DNA from: an uncultured Hyphomicrobiales bacterium
Lineage (GTDB): Bacteria; Pseudomonadota; Alphaproteobacteria; Rhizobiales; Xanthobacteraceae
Reading direction: 5' to 3'
Assembly (NCBI GenBank): GCA_903878085.1
Contig: CAIRGJ010000022.1
Span: 1-58,026 of the forward strand
Length of the DNA: 58,026 nt
Every line of letters begins with the position of its first letter. Positions within the stretch are counted from its first letter, which is position 1. Below the pieces are notes generated by a model. That model ran no database searches and was not told the origin of the DNA. It saw nothing but the letters and a program-made list of their open reading frames with translations. The position numbers and the translations under genes were made by a program. Below, piece by piece: positions 1-15,892 of the stretch.

Positions 1-235
1 AGGATAAGAAGATCGCTGTATTGCCGCGTTAATTGGGGTTTTTTATTAACTTTGGCGGGCTTGCATTAACGGGCAAATCGGCCTAAATATGCAACCATAA
101 CGAGCGGCCATCGGTATGAAACGGCGAAAAGACGCCGACGGTCGGGGCAAGTTGTGCTGCCACAGTTAACATTTCGCTAGGCTATCGGGTCAGATCCCCG
201 ATGACTTTCACAGGACGACCCTCACTCATAGGGCG

Positions 236-282
236 CTCGCACAAGCGCTCGCTAAAGCAAACGCTCAATGGGCGCTTGCGAG
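236..282. repeat. Inverted repeat just before the first gene
   Basis: The left arm CTCGCACAAGCGC (236-248) pairs with GCGCTTGCGAG (272-282), with one bulged C. It ends three bases before the ATG at 285. It could be an operator for the small DNA-binding-type protein that follows, or an RNA hairpin limiting its translation. That role is inferred from position only. Confidence 0.45.
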
Positions 283-284
283 TG

Positions 285-671
285 ATGGAGTCGCTACACA
301 TGCGTTCTATACAAGCTGTCAAATACGAGGATGCGCCTGCGCGCGGAATTGATCGCGTTGCATTCTCGATTCAAGAGTTCTGTTGGCGGAACGATATTAG
401 CCCGCCGACTTATCATAAATTGAAAAATGCCGGCCTTGGCCCGGACGAGATGCGCATCGGCAATGTGATCCGCATCACAGCCGAAGCTGAATTGAAATGG
501 CAGCGGGCGCGTACCTATCCAACAGGCCAAGAAGCGGAGGCGAAGGCCCGTTCCGAAGCGATGACGGTCGCGCGCGGCAAGAAGGCCGGGAAGCTCTCCG
601 CCAAATCGCCGCGCCACATCAGCAAAATGTCGCCGGAAGAGCGCAAGGCGTACCACCGGGCAGGCCGGTGA
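285..671 (+). CDS. Small probable helix-turn-helix protein of the element
   Basis: The product is a basic protein of about 128 residues. The central segment (FSIQEFCWRNDISPPTYHKL, then a GNVIRIT turn) has the layout of a MerR/excisionase-type winged helix: a helix, a recognition helix rich in Ser/Pro/Thr/Tyr, then a short strand reading the gene-position motif. The C-terminal third is Lys/Arg/Ala-rich and looks disordered. ATG codons at 285 and 300 are the likely starts. The open frame runs back to 201, but that part overlaps the inverted repeat and looks noncoding. Such proteins commonly sit at the head of phage or island replication modules as regulators or excisionases. The exact role is not shown. 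Confidence 0.6.
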   Translation: MESLHMRSIQAVKYEDAPARGIDRVAFSIQEFCWRNDISPPTYHKLKNAGLGPDEMRIGNVIRITAEAELKWQRARTYPTGQEAEAKARSEAMTVARGKKAGKLSAKSPRHISKMSPEERKAYHRAGR

Positions 672-678
672 TAGCGCC

Positions 679-1212
679 ATGCATCAAAAAGCAAACCGCG
701 CCTCGGGGGGCATCCCGGGCGCGGCTGGTAACAACACGTCTGCGGTAAGCGACGTAGTTACTAATAGTAACCCATCTACCAAGCCGGTGCAAGTCGCGCC
801 GGGCGGCCCACTGAACCGTCACGACCGCCGGAAACTGCGGGCGGGCATCCGTGCGTTTCACAAATCCGCACGTGGCATCGTCGAGGTCGAGACGGTCCGC
901 ACGGTTGATATTCCCGCGCACCCTCAAAAAGAAAAGTTGCTCGAAGCCACGCTCTGGTGGGCAAGCACGATCTCGGCAGTGCATCCGTTGTGTTTGGCTT
1001 GCGACCACGAATGGCAAACGGTTGAGCAACGCCCGCCGGCCGCATTCGTTTTCTCCCGGCCGTGGCAGCAGACCGCCGTCTCATGGCTTGTGTCCGCGCT
1101 CTGTGACGAATGCAACCAACATCCCGAACGGACCACGGCTGCGCTCAAGCGGCTATGGCCAGGCATGCGCGTGCTTGATACGCCGCATGCGGCGACGGGG
1201 GGTGTGCAATGA
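679..1212 (+). CDS. Hypothetical protein with two CxxC pairs, before primase
   Basis: This 177-residue protein has a Ser/Asn/Gly-rich N-terminus, a basic segment (LNRHDRRKLRAG) and a C-terminal half with CLAC and CDEC pairs about 40 residues apart, which could bind one zinc ion. Its last four bases are shared with the ATG of the primase gene (ATGA at 1209-1212), so the two are probably translationally coupled. The family is not recognised. Position suggests an accessory replication or regulatory role, but this is context only. Confidence 0.7.
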   Translation: MHQKANRASGGIPGAAGNNTSAVSDVVTNSNPSTKPVQVAPGGPLNRHDRRKLRAGIRAFHKSARGIVEVETVRTVDIPAHPQKEKLLEATLWWASTISAVHPLCLACDHEWQTVEQRPPAAFVFSRPWQQTAVSWLVSALCDECNQHPERTTAALKRLWPGMRVLDTPHAATGGVQ

Positions 1213-3449
1213 ATGCCGCCAACAAGATGGTCGCCGTGCCGTCCATGCTCGATGCAGCGCTCGCCTTTGCAGCGCAAGGCATTCCGGTTTTTCCCTGTAA
1301 GAACACGCCGAAGAATGAGGCGACACACAAGGCGCCATTGACCCCTCACGGGTTCAAAGATGCGACGCGCGACCCGTTACAGATCACGCGGTGGTGGCGT
1401 ACGTGGCCCGATGCGTTGCTTGCCATGCCGACCGGCCCGGCATCGGGCGTCGATGTCCTCGACCTCGATGTCAAGAACGGCAAAAACGGTTTTGCTGCTG
1501 TGCCTGACTGGAGAAAGCTGTCGCCGGTCATCGCCCGTACGGTCAATGGTGGCGCACATATCTACTGCAAATCGGACGGCACCATCAGCAGTACCTCCGA
1601 CCAGATCGCACGAGGCGTCGATACAAGGGGCAATGGCGGCTACATCATCGTCCCCCCTTCGCCGGGCTACACTTGGGTGAAGGGGCATGACTTAAGCAAC
1701 CTTCCGCCGTGGCCTGCCGATCTGCGGCCTCCCGAAAGGCATCACAGCGACGAGCAGAACGACTCCACTAGGGCCGACACCTATCCGTCCGTCACCTTGG
1801 AGGAGATCGACGCCGCGCTCGAAGTGACCGCGAGCGACAATTACCAGGTATGGTTCCAGATAGGCTGTGCGATCCGCAAAGAACTCGGCGACGATGGCTT
1901 TCCGCTGTTCGAAAAGTGGTCGCAGAAGTCGGATAAGTACAACGCCACTGAATGTGCAAAGAAATGGCGCGCTTGCAAAAAAGTAACCGGCTTTAGTGCC
2001 GGGACGATCTTTTTCCATGCCGACGAGGCGGATCCGAACTGGCGCGATGAATACGACGCACAGCAAAGAGCCGAACTTGAGCACACAAACACGGGCGCGC
2101 TCGGAGCGGGTTTATTTCTGACCGCTGTTGATGGCAAAAAACTCCATTTACCGGAGACAGGTGAAGGGCCGACCGCCGCGCCGGTCAGCAAGGGGGAAGC
2201 GCCGAAGCCCCGTATCCGCGCCACACCTTTCGAGTGGATTGATCCGACAAAAATCCCGCCGAGACGGTGGCTCTATAAGCCGCATTACATAAGACAGTTT
2301 TTAAGCGCCACATTCTCGACTGGTGGCGTTGGTAAAAGCTCGCTCGCGATTGCCGAGGTGTTGGCCATGGCCACGGGCAAGCCGCTGCTCGCAATCCAGC
2401 CAGCGAAAGCTTTGCGGGTTTGGTACTGGAACGGTGAAGACCCAAAGGACGAATTGGATCGGCGTATCGCTGCTACCTGCAAGCACTTTGACATCACCAG
2501 CGAAGATATTGGCGGCCGCCTGTTTATCGATAGCGGTCGCACCATGCCAATCGTGGTTGCGGAGGACTCAAAGCTCGGGCCGAAGATCGCGATGCCGGTC
2601 ATCGCGGAAGTTATTGCGACCTTGCAGGACAATAAGATCGATGTGCTTATTATCGATCCGTTTGTTTCTTGCCACCATGTGCCTGAGAACGATAATACCG
2701 CCATCGAGCGCGTCGCCAAGAGTTGGTCGCACATTGCCGAGTCGACGGATTGCTCGGTTATGTTGATCCACCATACCCGCAAGACCGGCGGCAAGGAGGT
2801 GAGCGTTGACGATGGTCGCGGGGCGAGTGCATTGCTGGCGGCGGTGCGGTCCGCGCGCACGTTAAATACCATGAACGAAACGGAAGCCGACGACGCTGGT
2901 GTTGAGCATAGCGAACGGCGGCTTCATTTTCGCTGCGACAACGGCAAGTCAAACATGACACCGCCAGCGGAACAGGCCGATTGGTTCAAACTGGTTTCGA
3001 TCGATCTCGGTAACAACGAAATCGAGTGGGGCGGCGATCAAGTGGGCGTCGTGACGCCGTGGAATTATCCTGGCGCAAACCCACCGACGATCACCGCAAG
3101 CACCATATCGCAGGCGCAAAAAGCCATCGCGGCGGGCGGGCCTTGGCGTCTTGACCAGCGCTCAACGAAAGAGCCGTGGGTTGGCTCACCTATCGCGGCC
3201 GTCCTTGGCCTCAGCGAGGACAAGAGGAAAGACAAGCGCGACATTGATAAAATTGTGCGCGGCTGGCTGCAGGCGGGTTGGTTGAAGAAAGTCGAAAAGC
3301 TCGACGCCCATCGCAAGCCGAAGGATTACGTCGAGGTTGGAAAAACGCCGGTTGATGCTCCGGCTGCCGAGGCGGTGCCGAACGATATGTCGCTAGAGGG
3401 GCCGCCCGATCCGCCGCCGTGGAATGAGGTGCCCGAGTGCGCCAGTTGA
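1209..3449 (+). CDS. Bifunctional primase/polymerase fused to RepA-like AAA helicase
   Basis: This 746-residue replication protein has three parts. Residues about 12-170 match the Prim-Pol (archaeo-eukaryotic primase) fold, with a DVLDLDVKNG metal-binding type motif and a later GGAHIY segment. Residues about 195-275 resemble the primase C-terminal domain (PriCT family), with the pattern YQVWFQIGCAIRKELG. Residues about 340-610 form a RecA/DnaB-like ATPase with Walker A GGVGKSS near 370, a WNGED segment, Walker B VLIIDPF near 478 and an LIHHTRKTGG motif. Such fusions prime and unwind DNA at phage, plasmid and satellite origins. The stop codon lies inside a terminator-like hairpin. It is the best-defined replication gene of the element. 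Confidence 0.9.
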   Translation: MNAANKMVAVPSMLDAALAFAAQGIPVFPCKNTPKNEATHKAPLTPHGFKDATRDPLQITRWWRTWPDALLAMPTGPASGVDVLDLDVKNGKNGFAAVPDWRKLSPVIARTVNGGAHIYCKSDGTISSTSDQIARGVDTRGNGGYIIVPPSPGYTWVKGHDLSNLPPWPADLRPPERHHSDEQNDSTRADTYPSVTLEEIDAALEVTASDNYQVWFQIGCAIRKELGDDGFPLFEKWSQKSDKYNATECAKKWRACKKVTGFSAGTIFFHADEADPNWRDEYDAQQRAELEHTNTGALGAGLFLTAVDGKKLHLPETGEGPTAAPVSKGEAPKPRIRATPFEWIDPTKIPPRRWLYKPHYIRQFLSATFSTGGVGKSSLAIAEVLAMATGKPLLAIQPAKALRVWYWNGEDPKDELDRRIAATCKHFDITSEDIGGRLFIDSGRTMPIVVAEDSKLGPKIAMPVIAEVIATLQDNKIDVLIIDPFVSCHHVPENDNTAIERVAKSWSHIAESTDCSVMLIHHTRKTGGKEVSVDDGRGASALLAAVRSARTLNTMNETEADDAGVEHSERRLHFRCDNGKSNMTPPAEQADWFKLVSIDLGNNEIEWGGDQVGVVTPWNYPGANPPTITASTISQAQKAIAAGGPWRLDQRSTKEPWVGSPIAAVLGLSEDKRKDKRDIDKIVRGWLQAGWLKKVEKLDAHRKPKDYVEVGKTPVDAPAAEAVPNDMSLEGPPDPPPWNEVPECAS

Positions 3450-3461
3450 TTGAGTGGCGCA
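3438..3461 (+). terminator. Hairpin overlapping the primase stop codon
   Basis: TGCGCCAGT at 3438 faces AGTGGCGCA ending at 3461, with the stop codon TGA (3447-3449) in the loop, and a run of six T follows at 3465. It has the form of an intrinsic terminator. The same arm sequence recurs twice more downstream, so it may also be one unit of an iterated protein-binding site. Confidence 0.5.
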
Positions 3462-3508
3462 GGGTTTTTTGCACCCAGGGCCTAGGAAATGCCGATGGAA
3501 TGGGCCTT

Positions 3509-3532
3509 TGCGCCAGTTGGCGGACTGGCGCA
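3509..3532. repeat. Perfect inverted repeat TGCGCCAGT / ACTGGCGCA
   Basis: The 9-base arms are perfect, with a 6-base loop. This is the second copy of the motif that overlaps the primase stop codon. It lies in the noncoding stretch before the terminase genes. Confidence 0.7.
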
Positions 3533-3560
3533 TTCAGAGTGTCGCAACCCACACGCCGTT

Positions 3561-3612
3561 TGCGCCAGTAGTAGTTGTTCCCCTTTAGGGGAACTACTAC
3601 TGGAGCGGCGCA
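3561..3612. repeat. Long hairpin sharing the TGCGCCAGT arm
   Basis: TGCGCC (3561-3566) pairs with GGCGCA (3607-3612). AGTAGTAGTT (3567-3576) pairs with AACTACTACT (3592-3601). CCCC (3580-3583) pairs with GGGG (3588-3591) around a TTTA loop. Small bulges separate the three stems. It is the third and most elaborate copy of the element's iterated inverted repeat. Confidence 0.7.
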
Positions 3613-3935
3613 GCGGCCAAGCGGGGAGTTTAAACCTCTCCCTGGGCAGATCGAATACCCGCCCAAAAAAATGCCGCCGGGCTCGACTGCACGCCGGAAG
3701 GCCCCACAACGCCCCACAATCGCCCGCGACGGCCGCTCATTGCCGTGCTGCGGCAATACGTTGGCTCGGATCGAAGAAAATGGACCATTGGGCCTGTCTG
3801 GGAAGCATCCGCCGCGCGCTCTTACCAGTCGGCCCGGTAGCCTGCGCCAACGTAAGGGCTCGGCCGTCGTTTTTTTCTAGCCGCTCATTTGCGTTGGGGA
3901 AACCGCTCCCGTGCAGCTCAGCTAAACACACGAAG

Positions 3936-3952
3936 CCCCCTTATTAAGGGGG
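3936..3952. repeat. Hairpin CCCCCTT / AAGGGGG
   Basis: A perfect 7-base stem with a 3-base loop sits upstream of the terminase operon at the start of an AT-rich stretch. It may end transcription coming from the left or mark the edge of the packaging region. Confidence 0.45.
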
Positions 3953-4051
3953 TAACATAACTCGCATTAACTTCTAAAAACCCATATAATTATGGATTTT
4001 ATGCTGATTCCGGGCTATAAATAGTTCAGAGAGCAAATATAGAGAGACATA

Positions 4052-4459
4052 TTGCCAGCTGAAAGCGCAACAGTCGCCGCAATGCCGCCCGCCAGCCGGA
4101 GCGCCAAAACGAACGGTCGCCGCCTGTTCGTCGATGGCGACGGCCGGGGGCCATGGGCGCGGCGCTGGCGCGACCTCAAGACCCTGTACGCCGACGACCT
4201 GGGTGGTGAGGGCTCGCTTTCCGAATTTCAACTCGGCTTGGTGGGCACTGCGGCGACCATGCGTTGCGAGCTTGAACGGCTCGAAGGCCGCCTGTCTGTT
4301 GGCGAGGCCATCGACACTGACATGTACGGGCGCATTGCTGGGCATTATCGGCGCATCTGCGAGACACTGGGCATAGAGCGCCGTCAGCGCGACGTGACGC
4401 CTTCGGTCGCCGACTACGTTGCCAACGCCGCCGCTGACGAAGAGGCGAGCGCGGCATGA
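4052..4459 (+). CDS. Probable small terminase subunit
   Basis: The product of up to 135 residues begins at TTG 4052, or ATG 4082. It is mainly helical and charged, with the conserved-looking pattern WARRWRDLKTLYADDLGG, a segment LVGTAATMRCELERLEGRL, and YGRIAGHYRRICETLGIERR near the end. Its end overlaps the large terminase start as ATGA at 4456-4459. The call rests on position directly before a clear large terminase, on the size, and on the helical make-up expected of a DNA-recognition subunit. The sequence itself is not diagnostic. Confidence 0.6.
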   Translation: MPAESATVAAMPPASRSAKTNGRRLFVDGDGRGPWARRWRDLKTLYADDLGGEGSLSEFQLGLVGTAATMRCELERLEGRLSVGEAIDTDMYGRIAGHYRRICETLGIERRQRDVTPSVADYVANAAADEEASAA

Positions 4460-5916
4460 AACCGTCCATCAGCATCCGCAAGGCGCTCTTCGACAAGAAG
4501 CTGCTCGGCAACGTGCTCGCCGGTAAGACCTGGCACCCTTGGCGCGTTCTGCTGATCGCCGCGATGGGCGAACCGCTGACCGACGACGAGCGCGTCATCT
4601 TCACCCAATTGACGGGGCGCGAGCGCGAACCGCTGCAATGCGTCGAAGAGTTTGTGGCCGTCGTCGGGAGGCGTGGCGGCAAGTCGAGAGCAATGGCAGT
4701 CCTTGCAACTTTCATCGCAGCACTCTGTAAGCACCTTCTTGTGTGCGGCGAGCGCGGTGTCGTCTTGTTGATCGCGCCAGATCAAAAGCAAGCCGTCATA
4801 GCTCTCAATTACGCCGTAGCCACCTTCGAACAGTCACCGATCCTCAAGCGGCTCATCGCCAACAAAAACAGTGACACCTTGGAATTGACCAACGGCGTCA
4901 GCATCGAAGTTCGCGCGGCATCCTTTCGCCGCCTGCGCGGCCCGACTTATATCGCTGTCATCGCCGACGAGGCGGCGTTTTGGTACAGCGACGAGTTCTC
5001 AGCGAACGCAGACACCGAAATCCTCAATGCCGTCCGACCGGGCTTGGCAACGACTGGCGGTCCGCTGATCATCGCCTCGAGCCCGTATGCAAAGCGCGGC
5101 GTTTTGTTCGACGCATACAAACGTAACTTCGGGCCGGATGGCGATCCGTTAATCCTCGTGGCTCAGGGCGCGAGCCGGGACTTCAATCCGTCGCTGCTGC
5201 AGTCAGTCGTTGATCGCGCATTGGAACGCGATCACGCAGCAGCATCAGCCGAATTTCTTGCGCAGTTCAGGAACGACATAGAGGGCTTCGTCAGCTATGA
5301 AATCGTCCAAGCTTGTGTTGGTGATCATGTCGAGATGGCACCACTTCCGCGCCGTCATTATCATGCCTTCGTCGATCCAAGCGGCGGCAGCGCTGATAGT
5401 TTCACACTGGCAATTAGCCACCGTGACGGCGAGCGCATTATTGTCGATGCCACGCGTGAGGTGAAGCCGCCGTTCTCGCCTGAAGGCGTGATCGATGACT
5501 TCTCGGTTCTTCTCAAATCCTATCGCGTCACGAAGGTTGTCGGCGACCGATACGCGGGCGAGTTTCCCCGTGAATTATTCCGCAAGCGCGGCATCGGCTA
5601 CGTCTGCTCGGAGAAGCCGAAGTCAGATCTGTTCCGCGATTTGCTGCCGTTGCTAAATGCGGGCCGCATCGTGCTACCGAAGTCTGAACGGCTTGTCGGC
5701 CAGTTGACTGGCCTTGAGCGTCGCACTGCGCGCTCAGGCAAAGACAGCATCGATCATGGCCCTGGCAGTCACGACGACTTGGCGAACGCAGTTGCTGGGA
5801 CTGCCGATCTCGCAACCAGCCAGCCAGCGCCTCTTGTCGTTACAAATGCAGTTCTCGCGCGAGCGCACTCACACCTGCCAACATCTCGCCAATCATCCAC
5901 GAGAGTTTTCTTCTGA
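4456..5916 (+). CDS. Large terminase subunit (packaging ATPase-nuclease)
   Basis: This 486-residue protein has the architecture of phage large terminases. The N-terminal ATPase has a deviant Walker A GRRGGKS near residue 72 and a Walker B AVIADEAAFW near 168 followed by a coupling-type IIASSPYAK segment. The C-terminal RNase H-like nuclease has acidic motifs in FVDPSGG near 305, VGDRYAGEF near 360 and GSHDDLANAVAG near 436. These would drive DNA into proheads and cut the concatemer. All motifs look intact and the length is full. No portal or capsid gene follows, which is unusual for a phage and points to a satellite or a relic. Confidence 0.9.
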   Translation: MKPSISIRKALFDKKLLGNVLAGKTWHPWRVLLIAAMGEPLTDDERVIFTQLTGREREPLQCVEEFVAVVGRRGGKSRAMAVLATFIAALCKHLLVCGERGVVLLIAPDQKQAVIALNYAVATFEQSPILKRLIANKNSDTLELTNGVSIEVRAASFRRLRGPTYIAVIADEAAFWYSDEFSANADTEILNAVRPGLATTGGPLIIASSPYAKRGVLFDAYKRNFGPDGDPLILVAQGASRDFNPSLLQSVVDRALERDHAAASAEFLAQFRNDIEGFVSYEIVQACVGDHVEMAPLPRRHYHAFVDPSGGSADSFTLAISHRDGERIIVDATREVKPPFSPEGVIDDFSVLLKSYRVTKVVGDRYAGEFPRELFRKRGIGYVCSEKPKSDLFRDLLPLLNAGRIVLPKSERLVGQLTGLERRTARSGKDSIDHGPGSHDDLANAVAGTADLATSQPAPLVVTNAVLARAHSHLPTSRQSSTRVFF

Positions 5917-5938
5917 ACGTCAACCCAAGGAGCTAACA

Positions 5939-6367
5939 ATGCAGATCATGCCGATGCCATCCCGTTACGGTACGAATAAAGAAAACCTCTTCATCGAAAT
6001 CTCCGGCGGTCGCAACACCGACGGACGCGGCTGGGCTTACGATGCCATGCCTGAAGGCCTTAAGATTAGATCCTTCCGCATGGCTCGTGACGATATCGAC
6101 CCGAACAAGTCGATGAAGCAAGTCGGCGGAATGACAGCCGAAGCATACGGCCGCGTCATGGAGTTTCTCAAAGGTAGGCTCGACGCCGACAGCATGTCAG
6201 AGCTGCACCGTCTTCTTGAGGCTGTCGGCTCAGGCAAGCCGAGCGAAGTCGATGCCACTGACGATCCTTCTTCGTTCCTTGGCAAACCGAAAGTCGGGGG
6301 AGCCATGGACAGCGCCGTCGGCTTCTTCGGACGCTTCCCTAACGCTAAGCGGATTGGGTTTGTGTGA
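5939..6367 (+). CDS. Hypothetical protein after terminase
   Basis: This 142-residue protein starts at ATG 5939, seven bases after a strong AAGGAG ribosome binding site. The open frame continues back to 5714 inside the terminase gene, but the RBS fixes the start. The middle is helical and acidic (LDADSMSELHRLLEAV), and the C-terminus ends in a Phe/Arg-rich motif GFFGRFPNAKRIGFV. Families with a similar tail occur among small phage head-assembly proteins, but I cannot name one with confidence. Its stop codon overlaps the next start. Confidence 0.75.
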   Translation: MQIMPMPSRYGTNKENLFIEISGGRNTDGRGWAYDAMPEGLKIRSFRMARDDIDPNKSMKQVGGMTAEAYGRVMEFLKGRLDADSMSELHRLLEAVGSGKPSEVDATDDPSSFLGKPKVGGAMDSAVGFFGRFPNAKRIGFV

Positions 6368-7038
6368 TGACACAGCAAGCCAAACTCAAAGCCGCCGAAG
6401 CTGCGCCACGCGACCAACTCGCCGCCGCAATCAAAGATCATGCCGCCACGCTTGCCTTGCAAAAGCGGGTCGCGGAGGCTCTCGAACATGCGTCCGAAAC
6501 TGTTTATGCGTGCCGTCCCTCAGTAGAGGCAGCCGAAACGCAGCTTGCCGAGGCGCAAGCCAATACAAGTCGCAGGCTTGCCGCTGTTGCGTTGGGAGAA
6601 CCTGTCGGCATCTCAACGCAAGATGCCACCGACGCCTTGACCAAGGCACAAAACGACCTTTCCGTTGCGCGTGCCACGCGTGAGGCCCTCGGCGCACGGC
6701 ACCAGCGCACGAATGCAGCGCTGGCTGCGTGCCAGCAAAAAGTCGATGATGCCGTGCGTGACGTTATCGGGGCTTCTGTGCCTTCTATTGCTGAATTATT
6801 GAAAGAGGCCACAGCAGCGCGCGACAAGTTTGTCGAGTACCGTTGTCTGTTGCGTTGGCTGATGCGCAACGGCTTTGACAGTTCATCCCCAGAATACGAA
6901 ATGATGAACGACTTCTTAGGCCATCCGTTTCTGTTGCTTGAGTATGGAGATGGGTGGTCGAAAAACGCCATCCTTGCGCCGTGGCAGAAGGCTCGTGATG
7001 TATTGGCAACTGACGCATCAACGTCATTGCCGGTTTGA
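6367..7038 (+). CDS. Hypothetical coiled-coil protein
   Basis: This roughly 223-residue protein starts at ATG 6367, sharing one base with the preceding TGA. A GTG at 6364 is the alternative. Residues about 1-150 are Ala/Glu/Gln/Lys-rich heptads predicted to form a long coiled coil. The last 60 residues are more globular and aromatic (LLRWLMRNGFD, FLLLEYGDGWSKN). No enzyme motif is visible. It ends the plus-strand run that began with the terminase, and a hairpin follows. Confidence 0.7.
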   Translation: MTQQAKLKAAEAAPRDQLAAAIKDHAATLALQKRVAEALEHASETVYACRPSVEAAETQLAEAQANTSRRLAAVALGEPVGISTQDATDALTKAQNDLSVARATREALGARHQRTNAALAACQQKVDDAVRDVIGASVPSIAELLKEATAARDKFVEYRCLLRWLMRNGFDSSSPEYEMMNDFLGHPFLLLEYGDGWSKNAILAPWQKARDVLATDASTSLPV

Positions 7039-7094
7039 GTTGCGTCTCGGCGGCTTGTTTCAAAATCTCCTTTTGAGGTCGCCGAAGGTGCAGT

Positions 7095-7129
7095 AGGGCC
7101 GCTCGTTTGATCCGCAGGCGGGCGGCCCT
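7095..7129 (+). terminator. Possible terminator after the packaging operon
   Basis: AGGGCCGC (7095-7102) pairs perfectly with GCGGCCCT (7122-7129), followed by TTTAAA. The T run is short, so termination is plausible but not certain. Confidence 0.4.
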
Positions 7130-7187
7130 TTAAAGGATTGCATCGGTAGCGGCCTTTCTACTCCTTGGGGCAAGCTCGAGATGCAAA

Positions 7188-7553: not shown

Positions 7554-7803
7554 AGCTTCGCTCCCTAGCTCGCTTGATAGTTCACTAGGATAGCGATGGA
7601 AGGGACGGGCGTCATGCTCGGCTCTTTCATTTTTGGCAGATTACGAAGGGTTCCAGGGGCGAACGGCACCCATAACAGCGGCAATTCTCGCGGCACGCGG
7701 AATTGCCCCGGGTCAGAAAAGCCTTTAAAATTGGAACAAACAGGCGCTATTAACGTAGAATCAGCAGTTAGCTCTATAAAGATTGAGCATTGCGGAGGGG
7801 AAC

Positions 7804-8322
7804 ATGGCTTCCAATGAAGATCGTTTGCCGAGCGTGACGCATTACGTCATCGCCCGCTGTGATCCAGCCAAACTCGGCGCGACCAAACTGAACAAGGTTC
7901 TTTGGTTCGCGGACGTGATCTATTATCGCCGGCATGGGCGCACTATCACGGGCGTCGATAATTACGTGAAGCAGCAATTCGGTCCCGTGCAGCGGAACAT
8001 GCTCGGCGTTCTCGAAAAGCTGAAGAAAGAAGGCAAGATCGCCGAACGGCCTAGTGACACCCCGGTTGGAATTCGCCGTGAATATGTTTGGCTTGAAGAG
8101 CCGACCCTAGCGCCTTTCGCGGGCGACGAAGTTGATTTGCTCAACGAGGTTATGGACTGGATCTGCAACGGCGAGAGCGCGAAATCCATCTCCGACAAGA
8201 GCCACGATGTGTTGTGGGAAGAAACGGAGATCGGCGCTGCGATGCCTGTTGCCGCTGGGGCGGTCGTCCCGGCTGAGATCACGGCTGAAGCGGTGGAGTG
8301 GGCGAAGAGCGCCTTCGCGTGA
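7804..8322 (+). CDS. Panacea-domain antitoxin (DUF4065/SocA-like)
   Basis: This 172-residue protein starts at ATG 7804, directly after a GGAGGGG ribosome binding site. The segment TKLNKVLWFADVIYYRRHG followed by an FGPVQRN block matches the Panacea (DUF4065) fold, whose hallmarks are a conserved Lys-Leu helix, an aromatic/Ala helix and a G-P-V turn. Panacea proteins are antitoxins that neutralise many unrelated toxins encoded beside them. The stop codon overlaps the next gene's GTG start (GTGA at 8319-8322), typical of a coupled toxin-antitoxin operon. Confidence 0.85.
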   Translation: MASNEDRLPSVTHYVIARCDPAKLGATKLNKVLWFADVIYYRRHGRTITGVDNYVKQQFGPVQRNMLGVLEKLKKEGKIAERPSDTPVGIRREYVWLEEPTLAPFAGDEVDLLNEVMDWICNGESAKSISDKSHDVLWEETEIGAAMPVAAGAVVPAEITAEAVEWAKSAFA

Positions 8323-8618
8323 GAATTGCTCGACCGGCGACGGGCTTCATCATTACGGAGCCCGCAACTTTTGGCGCGTTGCTTCAGGGCTATGCCCAGA
8401 GATGGCCGCGCGCTCAAGAGCATTGGGCGGCCGTCAAACAGCGCCTGAAGATGACCGGCCATAAGGAAGGTGCCGCGATCGGCGGCAACAGTTCAAACAG
8501 GGTCTTTGAAGCCGAGGGCGACGTCGCTAGCCAGTTGCCGACGATCCGTGTCGCCTATCATGTGCTTGGCGACAAGCTGGAATTTAGGAAGCTCGCGGTC
8601 CTCGATCCGCCCGTCTGA
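8319..8618 (+). CDS. Candidate toxin paired with Panacea antitoxin
   Basis: This 99-residue protein starts at GTG 8319, overlapping the antitoxin stop. It has a basic, helical first half (EHWAAVKQRLKMTGHKEG) and a beta-rich end (LPTIRVAYHVLGDKLEFRKL) that resembles the terminal strands of RelE/ParE-fold toxins. I do not see a definite match to a named toxin family. The toxin call rests on the antitoxin next door, the overlap, the size and the fold impression. A target such as mRNA or the ribosome would follow if it is RelE-like, which is inference. Confidence 0.6.
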   Translation: MRIARPATGFIITEPATFGALLQGYAQRWPRAQEHWAAVKQRLKMTGHKEGAAIGGNSSNRVFEAEGDVASQLPTIRVAYHVLGDKLEFRKLAVLDPPV

Positions 8619-9290: not shown

Positions 9291-9466
9291 CCTTCGACTT
9301 TGTACCAAAAAACTTCAACTTTAAATTTGGCGTTGGTGTCGGCGTGTCCGCGGGTGCTGAGATCAGGCTGGAGAGCGTGGTATCTTTTGGTGCCAAGTTT
9401 GATGGCGAGTTTTCCAATCGCTCACAGACCTATGCGGGCACCGGAACCATCAGATACGCGTGGTGA
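9284..9466 (+). pseudogene. Fragment of a beta-rich exported protein
   Basis: An open frame with no start codon in a reasonable place reads FVPKNFNFKFGVGVGVSAGA, then SVVSFGAKFDGEFSNRSQTY and ends in TIRYAW. The alternation of aromatic and small residues, with a terminal aromatic, is that of outer-membrane beta strands. It lies directly after the lipoprotein gene in another frame. It is best read as the tail of a gene whose start is gone, possibly the same gene that supplied the signal peptide at 8836. Confidence 0.4.
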
Positions 9467-9543
9467 GCTAGTGCAGGGCGTATGAGGCGCTGCATTGCAT
9501 CACAAGGATATTGCCCAAACTCGACCACATCACCTTCGACAGA

Positions 9544-9789
9544 TCAGGGCGTCATGCCGCGTGGGATCAAATCGCCGTAACGAATTCCGCAGACATCGCC
9601 ATTCTTACCGTGGCGCTCGCACTTCGCGATCAGGTGCAGCAGGTCCGGCATGGTCACGTCGGGGCCGTGCAGATCAATCAACGTCTCTTTTCGGTATTGG
9701 CCTTTTCGGTCGCAACGCGAGCAGACCAGCCGGACCATCGGCTTCGGATAGTCTTTGAGTTTAATTGACGTATAGCGAGACGGCGACAT
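9544..9789 (-). CDS. Small zinc-ribbon-like hypothetical protein
   Basis: This 81-residue protein starts at ATG 9789. It carries CSRC near residue 23 and C-x(n)-C pairs (AKCERHG, DVCGIRYG) in its second half, arranged like a one-zinc ribbon. The pattern RKGQYRKETLIDLHGPDVTM between them is the kind seen in short uncharacterised proteins of Bradyrhizobium-type islands and prophages. The function is unknown; nucleic-acid binding is a reasonable guess. Confidence 0.7.
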   Translation of the reverse strand: MSPSRYTSIKLKDYPKPMVRLVCSRCDRKGQYRKETLIDLHGPDVTMPDLLHLIAKCERHGKNGDVCGIRYGDLIPRGMTP

Positions 9790-9804
9790 GGCCGATGCTG
9801 TCTT

Positions 9805-10059
9805 TCACGGCGGATTGATGGCTCCGGGTGGACTATTGAATGTACCCGACATTTTTTGGATTATCCGATCAAGCTCGCCGCGTTCTGCATCCGTAAGCTT
9901 ACTCAAGCACTGTTCATAAGCTACCAACATTGGTTCCTTCGGCCCGCCGGTGCGCGGCATAGCGCGGGTCATCATAGGCATGCGGCTGCTCGCATTCATC
10001 TCTACCTCATGAATGAAGTCACGAAGCCGCACCGCAATATTTTCCAAGTTGTCAGTCAC
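9805..10059 (-). CDS. Hypothetical 84-residue protein
   Basis: The best start is GTG at 10059, which has a GGGAG ribosome binding site nine bases upstream. The frame runs back to 10278, but the extra part is low-complexity. The product has an N-terminal amphipathic helix (LENIAVRLRDFIHEVEM), a Met-rich loop, and a second helix (CLSKLTDAERGELDRIIQKM). It is 15 bases downstream of the zinc-ribbon gene's start, so transcription order is this gene first. Nothing identifies its function. Confidence 0.55.
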   Translation of the reverse strand: MTDNLENIAVRLRDFIHEVEMNASSRMPMMTRAMPRTGGPKEPMLVAYEQCLSKLTDAERGELDRIIQKMSGTFNSPPGAINPP

Positions 10060-10201
10060 GGACGTTTGCTCCCATGTATATCGTTGCCCTCGGCAAGCGA
10101 CCTCGCGCCGATGCATTCTTAGCATACACGAAGCGAAGCGCCGCACCCCGTTGCGGCCCCGCCTCAAGGAGCGCATTGTCTGAGCAGTTGGGGGCGTGAC
10201 C

Positions 10202-11152
10202 ATGCGTGCCATCGCAATTGTTGGAATTGCCGCGTTTGCCTGGGCTGTCGCGGTATTCGTTTCGTATGACGTCGCCAACTCTCAATCATACGAAATTGCG
10301 CAGCCCACTCCGCGCAACGAAGACAGAGCGCTTGATTGCCGAAATCCTCGCGATGCGGCTCAGTGCCGCGAGTTGGAACGCGGTCTAACGAACTCGGGCA
10401 GAAATCATCAGTCGCAAGTCGCGCAAACGGGAACGTTCAAACCGAGCTTTGACTGCGCCAAAGCGACTTATCCCGACGAGCGGGCCATCTGCTCCAACGC
10501 TGAACTAAGTCAGCTAGATAATATTGCCAACGCCGGCTACGAATATGTTCGTCGTACCAATGGCGCTCAATTTGCAAAATCAATTACGCTGCCGCTTTTG
10601 CAATCACGACGAGCTTGTGGGTCAGACGCAGCGTGCATCAAGGAGCAGCAGCTCGCGGCAATTCAAAAATTTAATTCGGCGGGTGCGCCTGTCAGCGGTC
10701 CTCAGGTTGGCCAGCCGTATTCATCGGGAAAAGGTGAGACTTTTGCGCAGCAGGGCGACCGATACGATGTGGCCGCACGAAAAATGCAACTCGATGAATG
10801 GGAAGTGAGTTTAAAAGCGTTCTACAGTCGAGTAGCCTACATTGGCTTTGCATATGGATGCAAAATCATCAAGGCGCCTGCGCAAGTCGCACTTCTCCTT
10901 GAAGCTCCGTACTTTAGCTTCAATGAAAGAGCAGCTTCAATGGTGCAACACGGTTATAATTATGACAGATTTCATTCAGAATTCAGATCGGCTGGTCGTG
11001 GAGGTTTCGAACGTTCACAGGTTTCCGGACAATGTGACTACTGGAATGCAAACGCCCAAGAGGCGGTTCAACTTCGAATTCAAGCCAGCAGCCTAATGAA
11101 CTACATTGGTCCGGCTGACGCACATCCTCAGATGCCTACCCTTTTTAGATGA
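10202..11152 (+). CDS. Exported protein with LprI-like domain
   Basis: This 316-residue protein starts at ATG 10202 after GGGGG. An N-terminal hydrophobic segment (AIAIVGIAAFAWAVAVFVSY) is a signal anchor or signal peptide. Residues about 80-155 fit the LprI/DUF1311 domain: FDCAKATYPDERAICSN, SQLD, and CGSDAACIKEQ, with the paired cysteines typical of that fold. LprI-type proteins include inhibitors of host lysozyme in mycobacteria. Here the domain is followed by an unrecognised 150-residue C-terminal part with two more cysteines (YGCKI, SGQCDYW). Its placement in a mobile element suggests an envelope-protective cargo gene, which is inference. Confidence 0.75.
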   Translation: MRAIAIVGIAAFAWAVAVFVSYDVANSQSYEIAQPTPRNEDRALDCRNPRDAAQCRELERGLTNSGRNHQSQVAQTGTFKPSFDCAKATYPDERAICSNAELSQLDNIANAGYEYVRRTNGAQFAKSITLPLLQSRRACGSDAACIKEQQLAAIQKFNSAGAPVSGPQVGQPYSSGKGETFAQQGDRYDVAARKMQLDEWEVSLKAFYSRVAYIGFAYGCKIIKAPAQVALLLEAPYFSFNERAASMVQHGYNYDRFHSEFRSAGRGGFERSQVSGQCDYWNANAQEAVQLRIQASSLMNYIGPADAHPQMPTLFR

Positions 11153-11197
11153 TGATCCGCGTTAAATTTGAATGATTGCGATTGGAGGGCGGCGGCA

Positions 11198-11548
11198 ATG
11201 GCAAGTCACGCGAGGCTGTTTTTTTTACTGACCGCAGTCGTTTATTTATCTGTTGTCAAAGAAGCCAACGCTCAAGCTGATTACAAAAAATGCGCTGGTT
11301 ATTTTTTCGTTGGTTTGCAGTGTGTGACACCGCAGTTTCGCGATGCGTACCGAAGCGCATTCATGTCAATGGCGCGGATGAATGCGTCACAAGAAGGGAA
11401 GCCGGAGCCACTTACCGAGGATGAAGCAGTTCAGGGCTTGGCAGATACACTTCGCGAATGGCAAAAACTGGTTGGCCCGCGCTGCGAAAGCGCTTCAAGC
11501 ATTAGGGATTTATATCAAGATGAATGTCGCCAGATGCTCAGACAATGA
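11198..11548 (+). CDS. Small secreted hypothetical protein
   Basis: This 116-residue protein starts at ATG 11198 with GGAGGGCGG upstream. It has a clear signal peptide with core LFFLLTAVVYLSVV and an ANA-QA cleavage site. The mature part has cysteines in KKCAGY, LQCVT, RCES and DECRQ, consistent with two disulfides in the periplasm. It follows the LprI-like gene by 45 bases and may be co-transcribed. Family not recognised. Confidence 0.7.
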   Translation: MASHARLFFLLTAVVYLSVVKEANAQADYKKCAGYFFVGLQCVTPQFRDAYRSAFMSMARMNASQEGKPEPLTEDEAVQGLADTLREWQKLVGPRCESASSIRDLYQDECRQMLRQ

Positions 11549-11570
11549 TGTGGCGATGATGGCATCGTAT

Positions 11571-12203
11571 ATGTGTAGCCACCTATTCCCTGACTACAAA
11601 GCGCCCGTCGTCGCCAACAGAGGCGGCATCCGCGAACTCTGCATGATGCGCTGGGGCTTGCCGTCGTCACAGTTCGCGCAGATGCAAGCCGCCAAGAAGC
11701 GCGCGGCGAAGTTGGAGGCCAAGGGCAAGCCAGTCGATTTCAAAGAGTTGTTGCGGATGGAGCCTGACGGCGGCACGACCAATATTCGGAATACATCAAG
11801 CAAACACTGGCAGAGGTGGCTCGGCATTGAGCAGCGCTGCGTTGTGCCGTTCACATCGTTCAGCGAATTCAACAAGGCTGAGGGCGGCGACATATGGTTC
11901 GCTCTAGACGAGAGCAGGCCGCTCGCAGTGTTCGCCGGCATTTGGACGAACTGGACGTCGGTACGGAAAGTGAAAGAGGGCGACACGACAAACGATCTTT
12001 TCGGTTTTCTGACGACAGAGCCGAACAACGTCGTAGGGCCTATTCACCCCAAGGCAATGCCAGTCATTCTGACTAAGCCGGAAGAGATTGAGACTTGGCT
12101 TACGGCGCCGGTTGATGAGGCATTAGAGCTTCAGAGGCCGCTGGGTTTTGGGATGTTGAAGATTGTCGCGCGGGGGCAGAAGAAGGACGGCGAAGCCAGC
12201 TAA
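11571..12203 (+). CDS. SRAP (SOS-associated peptidase, YedK/HMCES-like), N-terminally shortened
   Basis: The 210-residue product carries the SRAP fold: MMRWGLP, TNIRN (Asn 71), VVPFTSFSEF (Glu 99) and GPIHPKAMPVIL (His 159). SRAP proteins crosslink abasic sites in single-stranded DNA through Cys 2. Relatives with the same body start MCNLYS and have roughly 40 residues before the FPDY-x-APVV block. Here ATG 11571 gives MCSHLFPDYKAPVV, so Met-Cys is kept but the intervening residues are gone. The frame is open farther upstream but without a family-like N-terminus. The copy may be inactive or a functional minimal form. The family assignment is firm. Confidence 0.8.
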   Translation: MCSHLFPDYKAPVVANRGGIRELCMMRWGLPSSQFAQMQAAKKRAAKLEAKGKPVDFKELLRMEPDGGTTNIRNTSSKHWQRWLGIEQRCVVPFTSFSEFNKAEGGDIWFALDESRPLAVFAGIWTNWTSVRKVKEGDTTNDLFGFLTTEPNNVVGPIHPKAMPVILTKPEEIETWLTAPVDEALELQRPLGFGMLKIVARGQKKDGEAS

Positions 12204-12220
12204 AACTAAGCCTTGTTGCG

Positions 12221-12454
12221 TCACTTGATATTGAGATTTTTCATGGAATCTAGCATTTTTTGCGCATCTGCAGCGTTCTGCTTTGCCCACGCTGCCGCCT
12301 TCGTAAGATCAGCGCCTTTCCCTTGCAAATAAGCGAGCGCGCAGATTTCACGATCAGCCCACCATGGACAGTTAAATGGACGGTTTTCTTTTCCGCACCG
12401 ATAGCCAATATTCCAGCTTAGATTTTGATGCCAATCCCGAATACGCGCCAGCAT
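12221..12454 (-). CDS. Hypothetical 77-residue protein
   Basis: The gene starts at ATG 12454 with a GAGG about nine bases upstream and is convergent with the SRAP gene. The product is Trp- and Cys-rich in the first half (YRCGKENRPFNCPWWADREICALAYLQG is interrupted by no stop), followed by an Ala/Lys-rich helix. Three cysteines and a His could bind metal. No family is recognised. Confidence 0.55.
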   Translation of the reverse strand: MLARIRDWHQNLSWNIGYRCGKENRPFNCPWWADREICALAYLQGKGADLTKAAAWAKQNAADAQKMLDSMKNLNIK

Positions 12455-12521
12455 GGTTCATGCCTCAGTTCGCCGGTTAAAACCCAACGCTGAGCATAGT
12501 TGATACATAATTGAATCCAAC

Positions 12522-12632
12522 TCACATAACTTCCGACTTGTCGCGGCTTTTCAGAATGCGACCGGCGTCAATAGCCATGTCCTCTCGGTTACGGTAGGTG
12601 CGGGGAGTGCCGTTCACTAAAATTTCAAACAT
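12522..12632 (-). CDS. 36-residue hypothetical protein
   Basis: The short frame from ATG 12632 encodes MFEILVNGTPRTYRNRED followed by MAIDAGRILKSRDK and ends at TGA 12522. It has the strand-strand-helix layout of small conserved rhizobial proteins, but stops early compared with what the start leads one to expect, so it may be a truncated copy. No strong ribosome binding site is visible. Confidence 0.45.
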   Translation of the reverse strand: MFEILVNGTPRTYRNREDMAIDAGRILKSRDKSEVM

Positions 12633-12692
12633 GCCGAATGATTATGCAATTCCAGTTTGCGGGTGATAAAATTGTTGCGGGAGAATCACTGC

Positions 12693-12881
12693 ATGAGCAA
12701 GATCAAGTTATTCAATGAAGCGTACAGACTGGCTTTCAAGCAGCTGATGGCCGACCCGGAACTTCTCGCAAAACCCTCAGGCCTTGCGTCTCGCCTAAAG
12801 GACGCCGTGCAGGCGCTAGTAAAAGACAGCAACTCTCCTTCGTTCGTTGCGGTCGAAGCGATAGCGCGGCTGAAGTCATAA
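12693..12881 (+). CDS. 62-residue hypothetical helical protein
   Basis: It starts at ATG 12693 with GGGAGAA upstream. The product is all-helical and basic (KIKLFNEAYRLAFKQLMADP, then ASRLKDAVQALVKD), with no transmembrane segment. It is convergent with the 38-residue membrane protein gene that ends at 12915. Function unknown. Confidence 0.5.
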   Translation: MSKIKLFNEAYRLAFKQLMADPELLAKPSGLASRLKDAVQALVKDSNSPSFVAVEAIARLKS

Positions 12882-12914
12882 AAGATCACAGCATGGATCA
12901 ATACCTGAGTCAGC

Positions 12915-13031
12915 TTAGGGTGCATCGCGCCGGTTGACATAAAGCCATACCGCCAACCCCACGATGAAGGCGGCGAACGTCCAACCGTTGGTGACGGTCG
13001 GGATGAGGGCAACGAGATCAGTCGGTTTCAT
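12915..13031 (-). CDS. 38-residue single-pass membrane microprotein
   Basis: A short frame from ATG 13031, five bases after a perfect GGAGG ribosome binding site, encodes a short polar start, the hydrophobic span FAAFIVGLAVWLYV and a positively charged tail VNRRDAP. By the positive-inside rule the C-terminus is cytoplasmic. It lies 123 bases after the end of a minus-strand trio of unknown genes and may be the last gene of that unit. The RBS and the clean transmembrane segment argue that it is real. Confidence 0.65.
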   Translation of the reverse strand: MKPTDLVALIPTVTNGWTFAAFIVGLAVWLYVNRRDAP

Positions 13032-13154
13032 AGGGCCTCCGCGATTCGGCGTTGAGGCTCTCTATTGATTCCACGATCGCGAGAGCGGCAACGCACCGGC
13101 CGCATTACCGGCCGGCCTCACGATGGCTCAAAGGGGAGGTGGGCAGTAGGAAGA

Positions 13155-13904
13155 TTAATCGGCTGCCGCCGTCGCGTTATTCTTCTGTGCCTGCTGCTTC
13201 AAAAAGCTTTTGATGCGGCGGCGGGCCTTGGTGACCGCCTCCGTAAGGCCGGCATTGGTCGAGCCGTGTCGCTGATATTGCTCCGGGAAAGTGCGTTGCA
13301 GTTCCCGAAAAAAAGACACGAAGGGCGAGGCTCGGCCCGGATCATCGAACTTCCCCAGACCGACGGGCAATCCACGAGCGGCGAATAGTTCTCCCAGCTC
13401 ATAGGTCAAATTATTCCATGAGCTGCCTTCGACAAACCCACGCTGCTCGCCTTCGCTGATCTGCTTCTTCGTCATTTCGAGCGCTCCTTGAAGACTCGTC
13501 ATGAAGTCGAGCAACTCCTTCCAACCTGGCCGGTGGAGTTGGGCAAGATATTTCCCCACCTGACCCTGCACGTATCCCGCCGCCGTCGTTTGCGCTCCCT
13601 CGTTCGATTCGAACATTAACAGCCAAAATTTCTGGCCGGCCTTGTGAAGCCGATCCAGATAACGAAGCGCGTCATCAACATAAGGGGCGTTCTGCTCGCC
13701 CGGGGCGCCACGAAAATATTTCTCGACGTGGGCAATGATCGTGCAGCGAAGTTCGGCATCAAGCGCATGATGGTAAGCTGCCTCAATGCGGCGCCAGTCG
13801 GCCGGCTGCGGTTCGAAAGATTGGTCGGCCACCCATCCGATTGAATAGGGAAGGCGAACACGCCGGCTTTTGCGGTTTCCTTTTTTGCTCGATCCCTCGA
13901 CCAT
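13155..13904 (-). CDS. Hypothetical 249-residue protein of the tRNA-proximal cassette
   Basis: The protein is soluble and mostly helical, with a strongly basic start (KKGNRKSRRVRL) and end (KARRRIKSFLKQQAQ). Recognisable blocks are DWRRIEAAYHHALDAELRC, YLDRLHKAGQKFWLLMFESN and LTYELGELFAARGLPVGLGK. No catalytic motif is evident. It starts five bases after the stop of the preceding gene, so they are probably one operon. Basic termini suggest nucleic-acid contact, but this is only a guess. Confidence 0.7.
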   Translation of the reverse strand: MVEGSSKKGNRKSRRVRLPYSIGWVADQSFEPQPADWRRIEAAYHHALDAELRCTIIAHVEKYFRGAPGEQNAPYVDDALRYLDRLHKAGQKFWLLMFESNEGAQTTAAGYVQGQVGKYLAQLHRPGWKELLDFMTSLQGALEMTKKQISEGEQRGFVEGSSWNNLTYELGELFAARGLPVGLGKFDDPGRASPFVSFFRELQRTFPEQYQRHGSTNAGLTEAVTKARRRIKSFLKQQAQKNNATAAAD

Positions 13905-13909
13905 TCGGG

Positions 13910-14605
13910 CTAAAATCCGCTCTCGTCTTCGTCGTCAGGAAAACGCTCCGGCCATGCCTGCAGCATGCGTTTAAATGTGTCATAGAATCCTTGAGGCATG
14001 GTCGAAAAGAAAATCGCCACATAAGCCGAAAGCGGTGTCCACTCCAGGGGAGCTAGCAGACCAATGCTGCGGAGTGGATCGGCGGGCGAGCCTCGTCCGA
14101 CTGAGTTTAAGACGATGGAAGCAAAGGGCTCGAATAGCGGTCGTGTATTCTCCTTCTCGGCTTGTAAATAAAACTTACGCCGCTCGACGGCGTGGTCCGT
14201 GAAATCAACGCCGGTCAGGTTCTCGATCATCGAGACGGCGATACGGTCTGCCGTGCCTACCGTCCCGAAGCCGACACGCTCGAACATCTCGCGATCGTTC
14301 CTCTGGTCGGCTAACCAAAAGCTCCCCATCAAAACCGCAATCCATACTATCGTCTCGGCCGCGATCGCATCGTTGTTCGTGTCGCGAAGATAGCGGTCGG
14401 ACCCCTCCCACATGGGGTGTGCATCCCAATGCAAGCCGCTGATGAAGTTACCCGCTGCGCCCATGATTGTAAGCGAGAGCGCAATAGCGCGGTTGTCGAC
14501 ATGGCCCGCTTCGGCCGTCATCCGATCGACCATGCCGAGCAAGGTTTCGGGCGCGGAGAGCTTGGTGCAAAATGCCGTCAGAGGCGGCGCGGCCGAGCCT
14601 TCCAT
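13910..14605 (-). CDS. Hypothetical 231-residue protein of the tRNA-proximal cassette
   Basis: The protein is helical, with a hydrophobic block ETIVWIAVLMGSFWLADQRN near residue 85 that may be a membrane span or a buried helix. A charged stretch ERRKFYLQAEKENTRPLFEP and an aromatic block AYVAIFFSTMPQGFYDTF follow, and it ends in an acidic tail (DDEDESGF). No family recognised. It sits between the membrane-anchored gene upstream (77-base gap) and the basic gene downstream (5-base gap). Confidence 0.7.
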   Translation of the reverse strand: MEGSAAPPLTAFCTKLSAPETLLGMVDRMTAEAGHVDNRAIALSLTIMGAAGNFISGLHWDAHPMWEGSDRYLRDTNNDAIAAETIVWIAVLMGSFWLADQRNDREMFERVGFGTVGTADRIAVSMIENLTGVDFTDHAVERRKFYLQAEKENTRPLFEPFASIVLNSVGRGSPADPLRSIGLLAPLEWTPLSAYVAIFFSTMPQGFYDTFKRMLQAWPERFPDDEDESGF

Positions 14606-14682
14606 GAATTAATCCCTTGCGGTCTGACCGTCTTCTTGCTTTCGGCCGTCATGGCGCTTGTTGGGGTTCCCCGCGCACCCTC

Positions 14683-15546
14683 TCAAATTTTCTCGTCGAT
14701 GAGGAGGTGCTCGATATAGTTCTCGGCTTCGAAATTAGCATCAGAGCGATAGAAGCTCCGATAAGGCTCGTCGCGCCCGTCTGCGTAGAACACGCTATAG
14801 AGGGCGTACTCGTCGGTGTCCTTGAAGTGGAAGCCGATCCGGCTTTCCATAATATGCGGTACATAGCAGACAGCGAGCACGTCCGTTTCATACACAAACG
14901 GTGTCTCACCGGGGGGGCTGAGCCTGCTCACTCGGTAGTCGATGTTGAATGCATGAAACTCCGCAATCGCTGCATCGATGCGCTGCTTAAATTTTGTATC
15001 TTTGATTTTTCGAGCGTACTCTTGAAGATGCTCAAGGTCTTTATCGCTCGTCGCGGATGATCGAAATTGCCAGTCAGGATTCAACGCGCGTTGCAGCGCC
15101 TGAAACTTCACCAAATTGAGATAGTGCTCCTCGATGTCCTCGATCGCGTAATTGCTCAGCGAGTCTGCATAGAGCACGTGCTCGCGCGTGCCGACGAAAT
15201 CGAAATCGGTGTACATGGGATATTTGTTAGTGATGATCGTAAGCTCGGCCTCACGCACCGCCTTGTCGGCAGTGCCGATCGCCGCCTCGGCCGCTTGCGC
15301 CTTCCGATAAATTCGCAAAAAACGATCAGGATCGAGGCGCACCAGATAGTTGGCGAGCTCGCGACGGAATGTGTCAAGCATCAGCTCTCTATCTGATGCC
15401 ATATTCATGCCGAGCGGGGTCGAAGTGGGGGCGGCTGAGGCGGCCGCTGCCGCTTTACGCGATCGCCAGTGCTCCCACAGATACAGCACGCCCCCCAGTG
15501 CGACGACGGCCCAAAGCCACTCTATGTTGTTTGCCCCGATCCCCAT
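14683..15546 (-). CDS. Membrane-anchored hypothetical protein, first of the cassette
   Basis: This 287-residue protein has one N-terminal transmembrane segment (IEWLWAVVALGGVLYLW, residues about 8-24) followed by basic residues, so the large C-terminal domain faces the cytoplasm. An Ala/Pro linker leads to a helical region (DTFRRELANYLVRLDPDRFL, a long charged coiled-coil-like section) and a beta-rich C-terminal domain with VYETDVLAVCYVP and YALYSVFYADGRDE. No known enzyme motif. It is the first gene leftward from the tRNA-Glu junction. Confidence 0.7.
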   Translation of the reverse strand: MGIGANNIEWLWAVVALGGVLYLWEHWRSRKAAAAASAAPTSTPLGMNMASDRELMLDTFRRELANYLVRLDPDRFLRIYRKAQAAEAAIGTADKAVREAELTIITNKYPMYTDFDFVGTREHVLYADSLSNYAIEDIEEHYLNLVKFQALQRALNPDWQFRSSATSDKDLEHLQEYARKIKDTKFKQRIDAAIAEFHAFNIDYRVSRLSPPGETPFVYETDVLAVCYVPHIMESRIGFHFKDTDEYALYSVFYADGRDEPYRSFYRSDANFEAENYIEHLLIDEKI

Positions 15547-15892
15547 GCGCTCGATTCTGCACTCGCTTTTCAGGGCAGGGAAGGGCCGCCGCGCTGGATG
15601 TGCAGATATTGGGCACCCGCCCGCCTGATTAGTTGAGTCGCGTTTGGGCGAACTTGGCGGCGGCGTCGACGTAGCAATGCGGTGGGCGTCCCAAGAATTG
15701 ACGGGTGCCGCACCGCTCGGTCGTGCCCGTTTTTCACCCGCGTATTCGCCCAGGCAAGGCCATGGGCGCGTTTAGGGTGGGGGTAGGTGGCTTTCCCCGC
15801 CGCCGAGCGGGAATTATATTTTGCCCATTCTTTGTTTGCCGGGCGTGGCAAAAAAGACCTTAAAACTAAGCTTTTGTTTATATTAAACTATT
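15547..15892. other. Element flank next to tRNA-Glu; no integrase
   Basis: About 345 bases between the cassette and the tRNA. A minus-strand frame (15570-15851) translates to an Arg/Pro/His-rich string without family character and is not called. The part nearest the tRNA (about 15845-15892) is AT-rich, as expected beside an attachment site. No second copy of the tRNA 3' end is seen in the window. Confidence 0.5.

Follow-up and report, generated by a model that had tools for sequence, protein, structure and literature searches.

A probable tRNA-Glu-integrated phage satellite with its own terminase pair in a Hyphomicrobiales genome, and its relatives

We examined a 58,026-nucleotide stretch of DNA from an uncultured Hyphomicrobiales bacterium (the window: the whole of contig CAIRGJ010000022.1, here C22, of the 64-contig assembly GCA_903878085.1). 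Its first 15,892 positions lie in what we interpret, with a probability of about 0.83, as a phage satellite that is integrated at a tRNA-Glu gene, carries its own packaging motor and would dock it on the portal of a helper phage. An earlier note on the same DNA had suggested a phage satellite after seeing a Prim-Pol helicase beside an apparently intact pair of small and large terminase subunits (TerS and TerL). The gene content was borne out, and the suggestion itself is supported by a family of islands that encode an integrase together with TerS and TerL and that do not match a portal.

The order of the island is attachment site, integrase, gap, helix-turn-helix (HTH) gene, Prim-Pol/helicase, noncoding stretch, TerS, TerL, coiled-coil gene, cargo and tRNA-Glu. 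Within positions 1-15892, the HTH gene through the 224-aa coiled-coil gene lie on the plus strand, and cargo genes thereafter run in both directions up to the tRNA-Glu. The GC content per kb is 51-61% to base 16000 and 58-69% past it. Leftward extension to the other attachment copy had been set beforehand as a test. A 27-base core from the 3' end of tRNA-Glu was searched for in the genome, allowing up to two mismatches. A single second copy of the core was found, on contig C53 (4975 bp) of the same assembly, where the repeat is identical to that of the window over 46 bp. A tyrosine integrase gene starts next to the C53 repeat, reads inward and runs to the contig end; the genes past the repeat are, judging by their translations, presumably KamA-, EpmA- and EF-P-like. 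In 5 of 19 KamA loci of relatives, all five from the same genus, KamA, tRNA-Glu and a VOC gene are adjacent without an island, and this VOC gene is the one that flanks the window's tRNA; the other 14 loci had no tRNA inside the retrieved flank. Because of the 46-bp repeats, the inward integrase and the island-free relatives, we take C53 and C22 to hold opposite ends of a single insertion. The integrase-to-HTH spacing of four relatives puts the unsequenced gap between them at about 0.35-1 kb, which leaves no room for a head or tail module, and with this estimate the island measures about 17.7-18.3 kb. The extension thus added an integrase only, besides the gap. The idea that the attachment site lies far off, beyond a set of structural genes, was rejected on the C53 repeat, the integrase-only interval and the empty sites. 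As expected of satellites in general, the island is a self-contained insertion that has an integrase and is bounded by attachment repeats.

The TerL frame is open, and the residues read as its ATPase and nuclease sites are invariant across ten sequences. Searches of Pfam, PHROGs and NCBIfam gave nothing for TerS, whose profile matches 84 of 91 genome loci. The TerS model gave no significant Foldseek match; in a second comparison HK97 TerS ranked first, tied with an unrelated chain.

No portal, capsid or tail genes were recognised among the element's scanned proteins with Pfam, PHROGs and NCBIfam. Neither the capsid, protease, portal and connectors of cf-PICIs nor a PLE-type tape measure and tail chaperone, which are found in relatives, were recognised in the element, which, the small C53-C22 gap aside, lacks the genes for a complete virion. 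The claim that structural genes are missing therefore stands for the element but not for its family, many members of which have a capsid, head protease or tape measure. A PF04860 portal is present in 27 of 49 host genomes, and a test by coordinates placed none of these sites within the retrieved loci; four PF04860 coordinate coincidences in such loci are closed frames. A portal was matched in one locus only, L115, at a site 7 kb upstream of TerL. The missing portal is not plain search blindness, since a search of the same type found PF05065 capsids within five islands (L049, L054, L057, L082 and L108), the same five being found by cluster profile. Capsids occur in 5 of 49 relatives.

Of 397 genomes of the order, 11 encode a TerL relative, a count that includes the genome of the window. 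In a wider, alignment-based search of species-representative genomes, 300 stretches matched the pattern and 245 encoded a TerL relative, of which we studied the best 80. Going by record titles, these are mostly from Hyphomicrobiales and other Alphaproteobacteria, with some from Gammaproteobacteria, Acidobacteria and Nitrospira; the nearest among them (67%) is L043, from a Hyphomicrobiales metagenome-assembled genome. Repeats were surveyed in 86 loci (79 of the best 80 and seven from the order search, duplicates removed). Direct repeats of at least 20 bp bound 36 loci, 31 of them at a tRNA, and these 31 islands span 9.35-18.3 kb with a median of 13.5 kb. The element belongs with these islands of similar size. 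An integrase was found in all 31, TerS in 29, a capsid profile in three and a portal profile in none. Two primase profiles matched six and five of the islands, the replication genes being variable. We saw no description of this large family in our searches of open-licence papers, and it is not confined to Hyphomicrobiales.

Several loci merit separate mention. In G376, a genome of the window's family, three contigs (L020, L022 and L037) hold TerL relatives, one complete and the other two partial, which suggests that it harbours several islands. In G238, the TerL of a damaged member (L041 14544-17000) is in two parts with a transposase-like open reading frame between them, inside a tRNA-Gln-bounded island. 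On the 25.8-kb Komagataeibacter nataicola plasmid pKNA06 (L223, NZ_CP019881.1), a TerL relative (44%) adjoins a VapE-domain gene; the plasmid, much of whose content is duplicated, also has a DUF2213 gene and ParA, and resembles a satellite of this kind living as a plasmid.

A defective prophage would account for the island if its structural genes had been lost and its integrase, primase and terminase kept by chance. Prophages often encode a terminase and a primase, the cargo stands where structural genes would, and damaged relatives exist, such as the one in G238. However, many tRNAs are occupied by islands of 9.4-18.3 kb with the same layout, the TerL residues are conserved, and portal-bearing TerLs mostly separate on a tree from portal-less ones that have an integrase. 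We built a FastTree tree of 160 TerLs, comprising 31 rows with a downstream portal, 85 with an integrase and no portal, and 44 unlabelled rows; the window's TerL is among the last because its integrase sits on C53. Portal rows and integrase-bearing portal-less rows are separated by five label changes. The portal group against all rows likewise gave five changes, compared to 28.5 in shuffles, and the integrase-bearing group against all other rows gave 28, compared to 52.5, a count that is high because the 44 unlabelled rows are intermixed. A defective prophage is therefore improbable, and a plain prophage remnant was rejected on the TerL conservation, the tree separation and the recurrent tRNA islands.

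What follows TerL varies in the relatives, where head protease and capsid clusters occur downstream of it. A tape measure is supported in at least 15 of 80 genome loci, five by direct match (L068, L070, L089, L107 and L109) and ten via profiles from matched clusters, among them L060, a fragment at a locus end; the count is a lower bound from a scan of part of the large proteins. At least seven of the 31 tRNA-bounded islands have one (G124, G356, L057, L059, L068, L100 and L109). The matches include G356 (6e-72), G099 (6.5e-69; both TMP_3 in Pfam) and G124 (1e-57). G099 also matches a tail chaperone (3e-19), Neck1 (4.5e-37) and a tail-fibre family (1e-34), in a locus of uncertain borders that has no tRNA repeat (best repeat 17 bp). 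Ten large post-TerL proteins were scanned: five matched a tape measure, one a tail fibre, one a family of unknown function and one a phage secretin-like family, and two matched nothing. Cluster 28 (L051) had a weak tape-measure match only (6e-5), and cluster 38 had none in L105 and a weak one in G249 (1e-4). The large post-TerL gene of a Mesorhizobium locus (L103 13679-15805) matches the PHROG of M13 pIV-like secretins (1e-77) and is not a tail gene. In the gammaproteobacterial loci L054, L108, L082 and L049, a single HK97-type capsid gene lies directly 3' of TerL with no recognised portal; these would be satellites that bring a motor and a shell protein only.

Further evidence on whether such elements are alive comes from metagenomes. 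Of 37 full-length contigs listed for the test, three (9.4-9.8 kb) begin and end with the same exact repeat (60, 114 and 123 bp), as is typical of circular or concatemeric DNA. Two of these encode integrase, TerS, TerL, an X gene and a gene of the L070 tape-measure cluster. The third (L140, 1-9545; 9.5 kb, 123-bp repeat) has TerS, TerL and a capsid-cluster gene, with no recognised integrase. The virus Rctr16k (KX853514), whose TerL is 28.5% identical to that of the element, encodes an integrase, helicase loader, terminase, head protease and tape measure. Its paper (PMC5099504) describes a circular 17-kb 'genome 5' at depth 219 from concentrated virus particles, in which a putative tail protein was annotated but no head protein; it is seen to give DNase treatment for one of two pooled fractions, and reports identical ends for Rctr16k. 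The deposited Rctr16k sequence has no terminal repeat. Rctr16k fits the family as a distant kin.

The terminase might instead serve outside virion packaging, for example in cutting element DNA during transfer, or in defence. Packaging of the element is itself deduced, and the cargo has no PADLOC match. However, TerS is retained beside TerL, virion genes repeatedly follow TerL in relatives, and a relative was found in a virus-particle metagenome, so that such a role is very improbable.

We compared the element with known satellites as they are described in sections of PMC10690885, PMC10803314 and PMC12987554. Like PICIs of the SaPI type, it is an integrated island with integrase, regulator, replication genes, a packaging function and presumed reliance on a helper (PMC10690885, PMC10803314). 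PICIs employ the terminase of the helper, redirected through TerS, Rpp or cos (PMC10690885), whereas the element encodes its own TerL with conserved catalytic residues. It shares TerS and TerL with cf-PICIs, and some of its relatives have capsid and protease; however, cf-PICIs encode a whole head including portal, connectors, capsid and protease (PMC10690885), some with putative tmp genes (PMC12987554), whereas head genes are unrecognised in the element and the portal is missing from every island tested. P4-like satellites and PICMIs resemble it in having an integrase, a replication gene, helper dependence and no capsid of their own (PMC10690885, PMC10803314). Unlike the element with its TerS and TerL, P4 relies on the helper's terminase at cos sites (PMC10690885), and the PICMI text, which describes reduced gene content and no capsid remodelling, mentions no terminase (PMC10803314). 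The PLEs of Vibrio cholerae form chimeric tails by means of a tape measure and chaperone (PMC12987554), both also carried by relatives of the element, which itself has no tape measure. Rctr16k has integrase, replication gene and terminase in the same order when read circularly, with no portal or capsid annotated; it differs in its divergent TerL, its head protease and tape measure, and its DnaC-like loader in place of Prim-Pol. PLEs have replication and packaging genes different from those of the element.

The element could also be a known family (PICI, cf-PICI, VEIME or tycheposon) under a new name. Its integrase, HTH, primase and terminase match a PICI-like organisation, and some relatives resemble cf-PICIs in their capsid and protease. 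VEIMEs and tycheposons are marine integrative elements that are tRNA-linked, or that virions contain or are associated with. Both are mentioned in PMC10803314. Renaming is nevertheless quite unlikely, given that cf-PICIs are described with major capsid protein, protease, portal, connectors and both terminases (PMC10690885) and there is no portal here. On the features tested, none of PICI, cf-PICI, PICMI and PLE matches the element, which we regard as a variant type of satellite; VEIMEs and tycheposons lie outside this comparison.

For the satellite reading we propose the following course. Infection by an outside helper phage would lead to excision of the element. The Prim-Pol/helicase would copy it, perhaps from the palindromic stretch ahead of TerS. 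TerS and TerL would recognise the element's DNA and dock on the helper's portal, filling helper heads with satellite DNA that helper tails would deliver, and the coiled-coil gene product may steer head assembly. Across the family, TerS-TerL would be the constant part and the optional virion part (none recognised, a capsid, a head protease or a tail ruler) would result in chimeric particles.

Several points weigh against this reading. Packaging, excision and the helper are deduced from sequence for the element and every member studied, as is the joining of C53 to C22, with a short piece unsequenced between them. The identity of TerS is a combination of position, profile and a marginal fold match to a model. 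The portal search covered PF04860, which misses some portals, and one portal cluster. No PF04860 portal was found in the host's whole genome, which leaves no resident helper of that type; the helper would therefore be an outside phage or one with a different portal type. Lastly, Rctr16k is just 28.5% identical in TerL, and its virus fraction was, as reported, only partly DNase-treated.

The features of the element are listed in the table.

Table. Features of the element in the window (C22), with the basis of each assignment
Feature	Position	Strand	Basis
Helix-turn-helix / excisionase-like gene (alternative start 300)	201..671	+	phrog_66 E 0.00098; same-place relatives in islands
177-aa gene, overlaps primase start	679..1212	+	no family match
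Prim-Pol / PriCT_2 / AAA_25 primase-helicase, 746 aa	1209..3449	+	profile matches
Iterated palindromes GCGCCAGT...ACTGGCGC, candidate replication origin	3435..3610	.	sequence repeats
Noncoding stretch between primase and TerS; candidate origin and packaging site	3450..4051	.	conserved gap; function inferred
Small terminase subunit TerS (TTG start, or ATG at 4082)	4052..4459	+	position, profile, HK97 TerS-like model
Large terminase subunit TerL, 486 aa, conserved catalytic residues	4456..5916	+	profile matches, alignment
142-aa gene	5939..6367	+	no relatives among retrieved loci
224-aa coiled-coil gene; possible assembly factor (inferred)	6364..7038	+	post-TerL relatives; helical hairpin model
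Panacea/SocA-like antitoxin domain protein (cargo)	7783..8322	+	PF13274 9.7e-11
106-aa gene overlapping Panacea/SocA gene	8298..8618	+	no family match
318-aa cargo gene	10196..11152	+	phrog_33858 1.2e-7, family of unknown function
SRAP-domain protein (cargo)	11382..12203	+	PF02586 3.5e-17
Cargo gene	13155..13904	-	no match
Cargo gene	13910..14605	-	no match
Cargo gene	14683..15546	-	no match
Right attachment copy, 46 bp, in tRNA-Glu 3' end	15893..15938	.	exact repeat; left copy C53:1399-1444
tRNA-Glu(ttc), integration target	15893..15968	-	ARAGORN; empty sites in five genus relatives

The gap ahead of TerS has a median of 416 bp in the 42 loci where the preceding gene is large or encodes a primase, compared to 16.5 bp for 2236 same-strand gaps; the median is 195 in 50 other loci. 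The palindromes in this gap have no counterpart in the nearest relative, L043. The coiled-coil protein was modelled as a long helical hairpin (pLDDT, the predicted local distance difference test, 88.8), and structure comparison gave generic coiled-coil matches only. Relatives of its gene lie after TerL and, in some Methylobacterium loci, ahead of the tape measure; in many relatives an alternative gene family (34 proteins, 27 genome loci) fills its place. The head-protease protein L175, brought up by an iterated profile, aligned as scattered coiled coil and was not used as a relative, and a XopAD match in NCBIfam (E 0.001; 16 bits, where the cut-off is 2000) was dismissed as a coiled-coil artefact. 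From its position, the 106-aa gene is a possible partner toxin of the Panacea/SocA antitoxin. PADLOC found no defence match in ten cargo proteins, so the cargo gives no functional pointer either way.

Taken family-wide, the chances are about even that these are widespread, long-diverged satellites in which the terminase motor is fixed and a coiled-coil factor, a capsid alone, a head protease or a tail ruler is exchanged around it, giving different chimeric particles and a motor that must in each case fit a foreign portal. In tailed phages TerL and the portal meet at the packaging vertex, and satellites with a motor and no portal make the strictness of that contact testable. Short terminase-bearing islands may be functional elements, although they would otherwise be classed as remnants of prophages.

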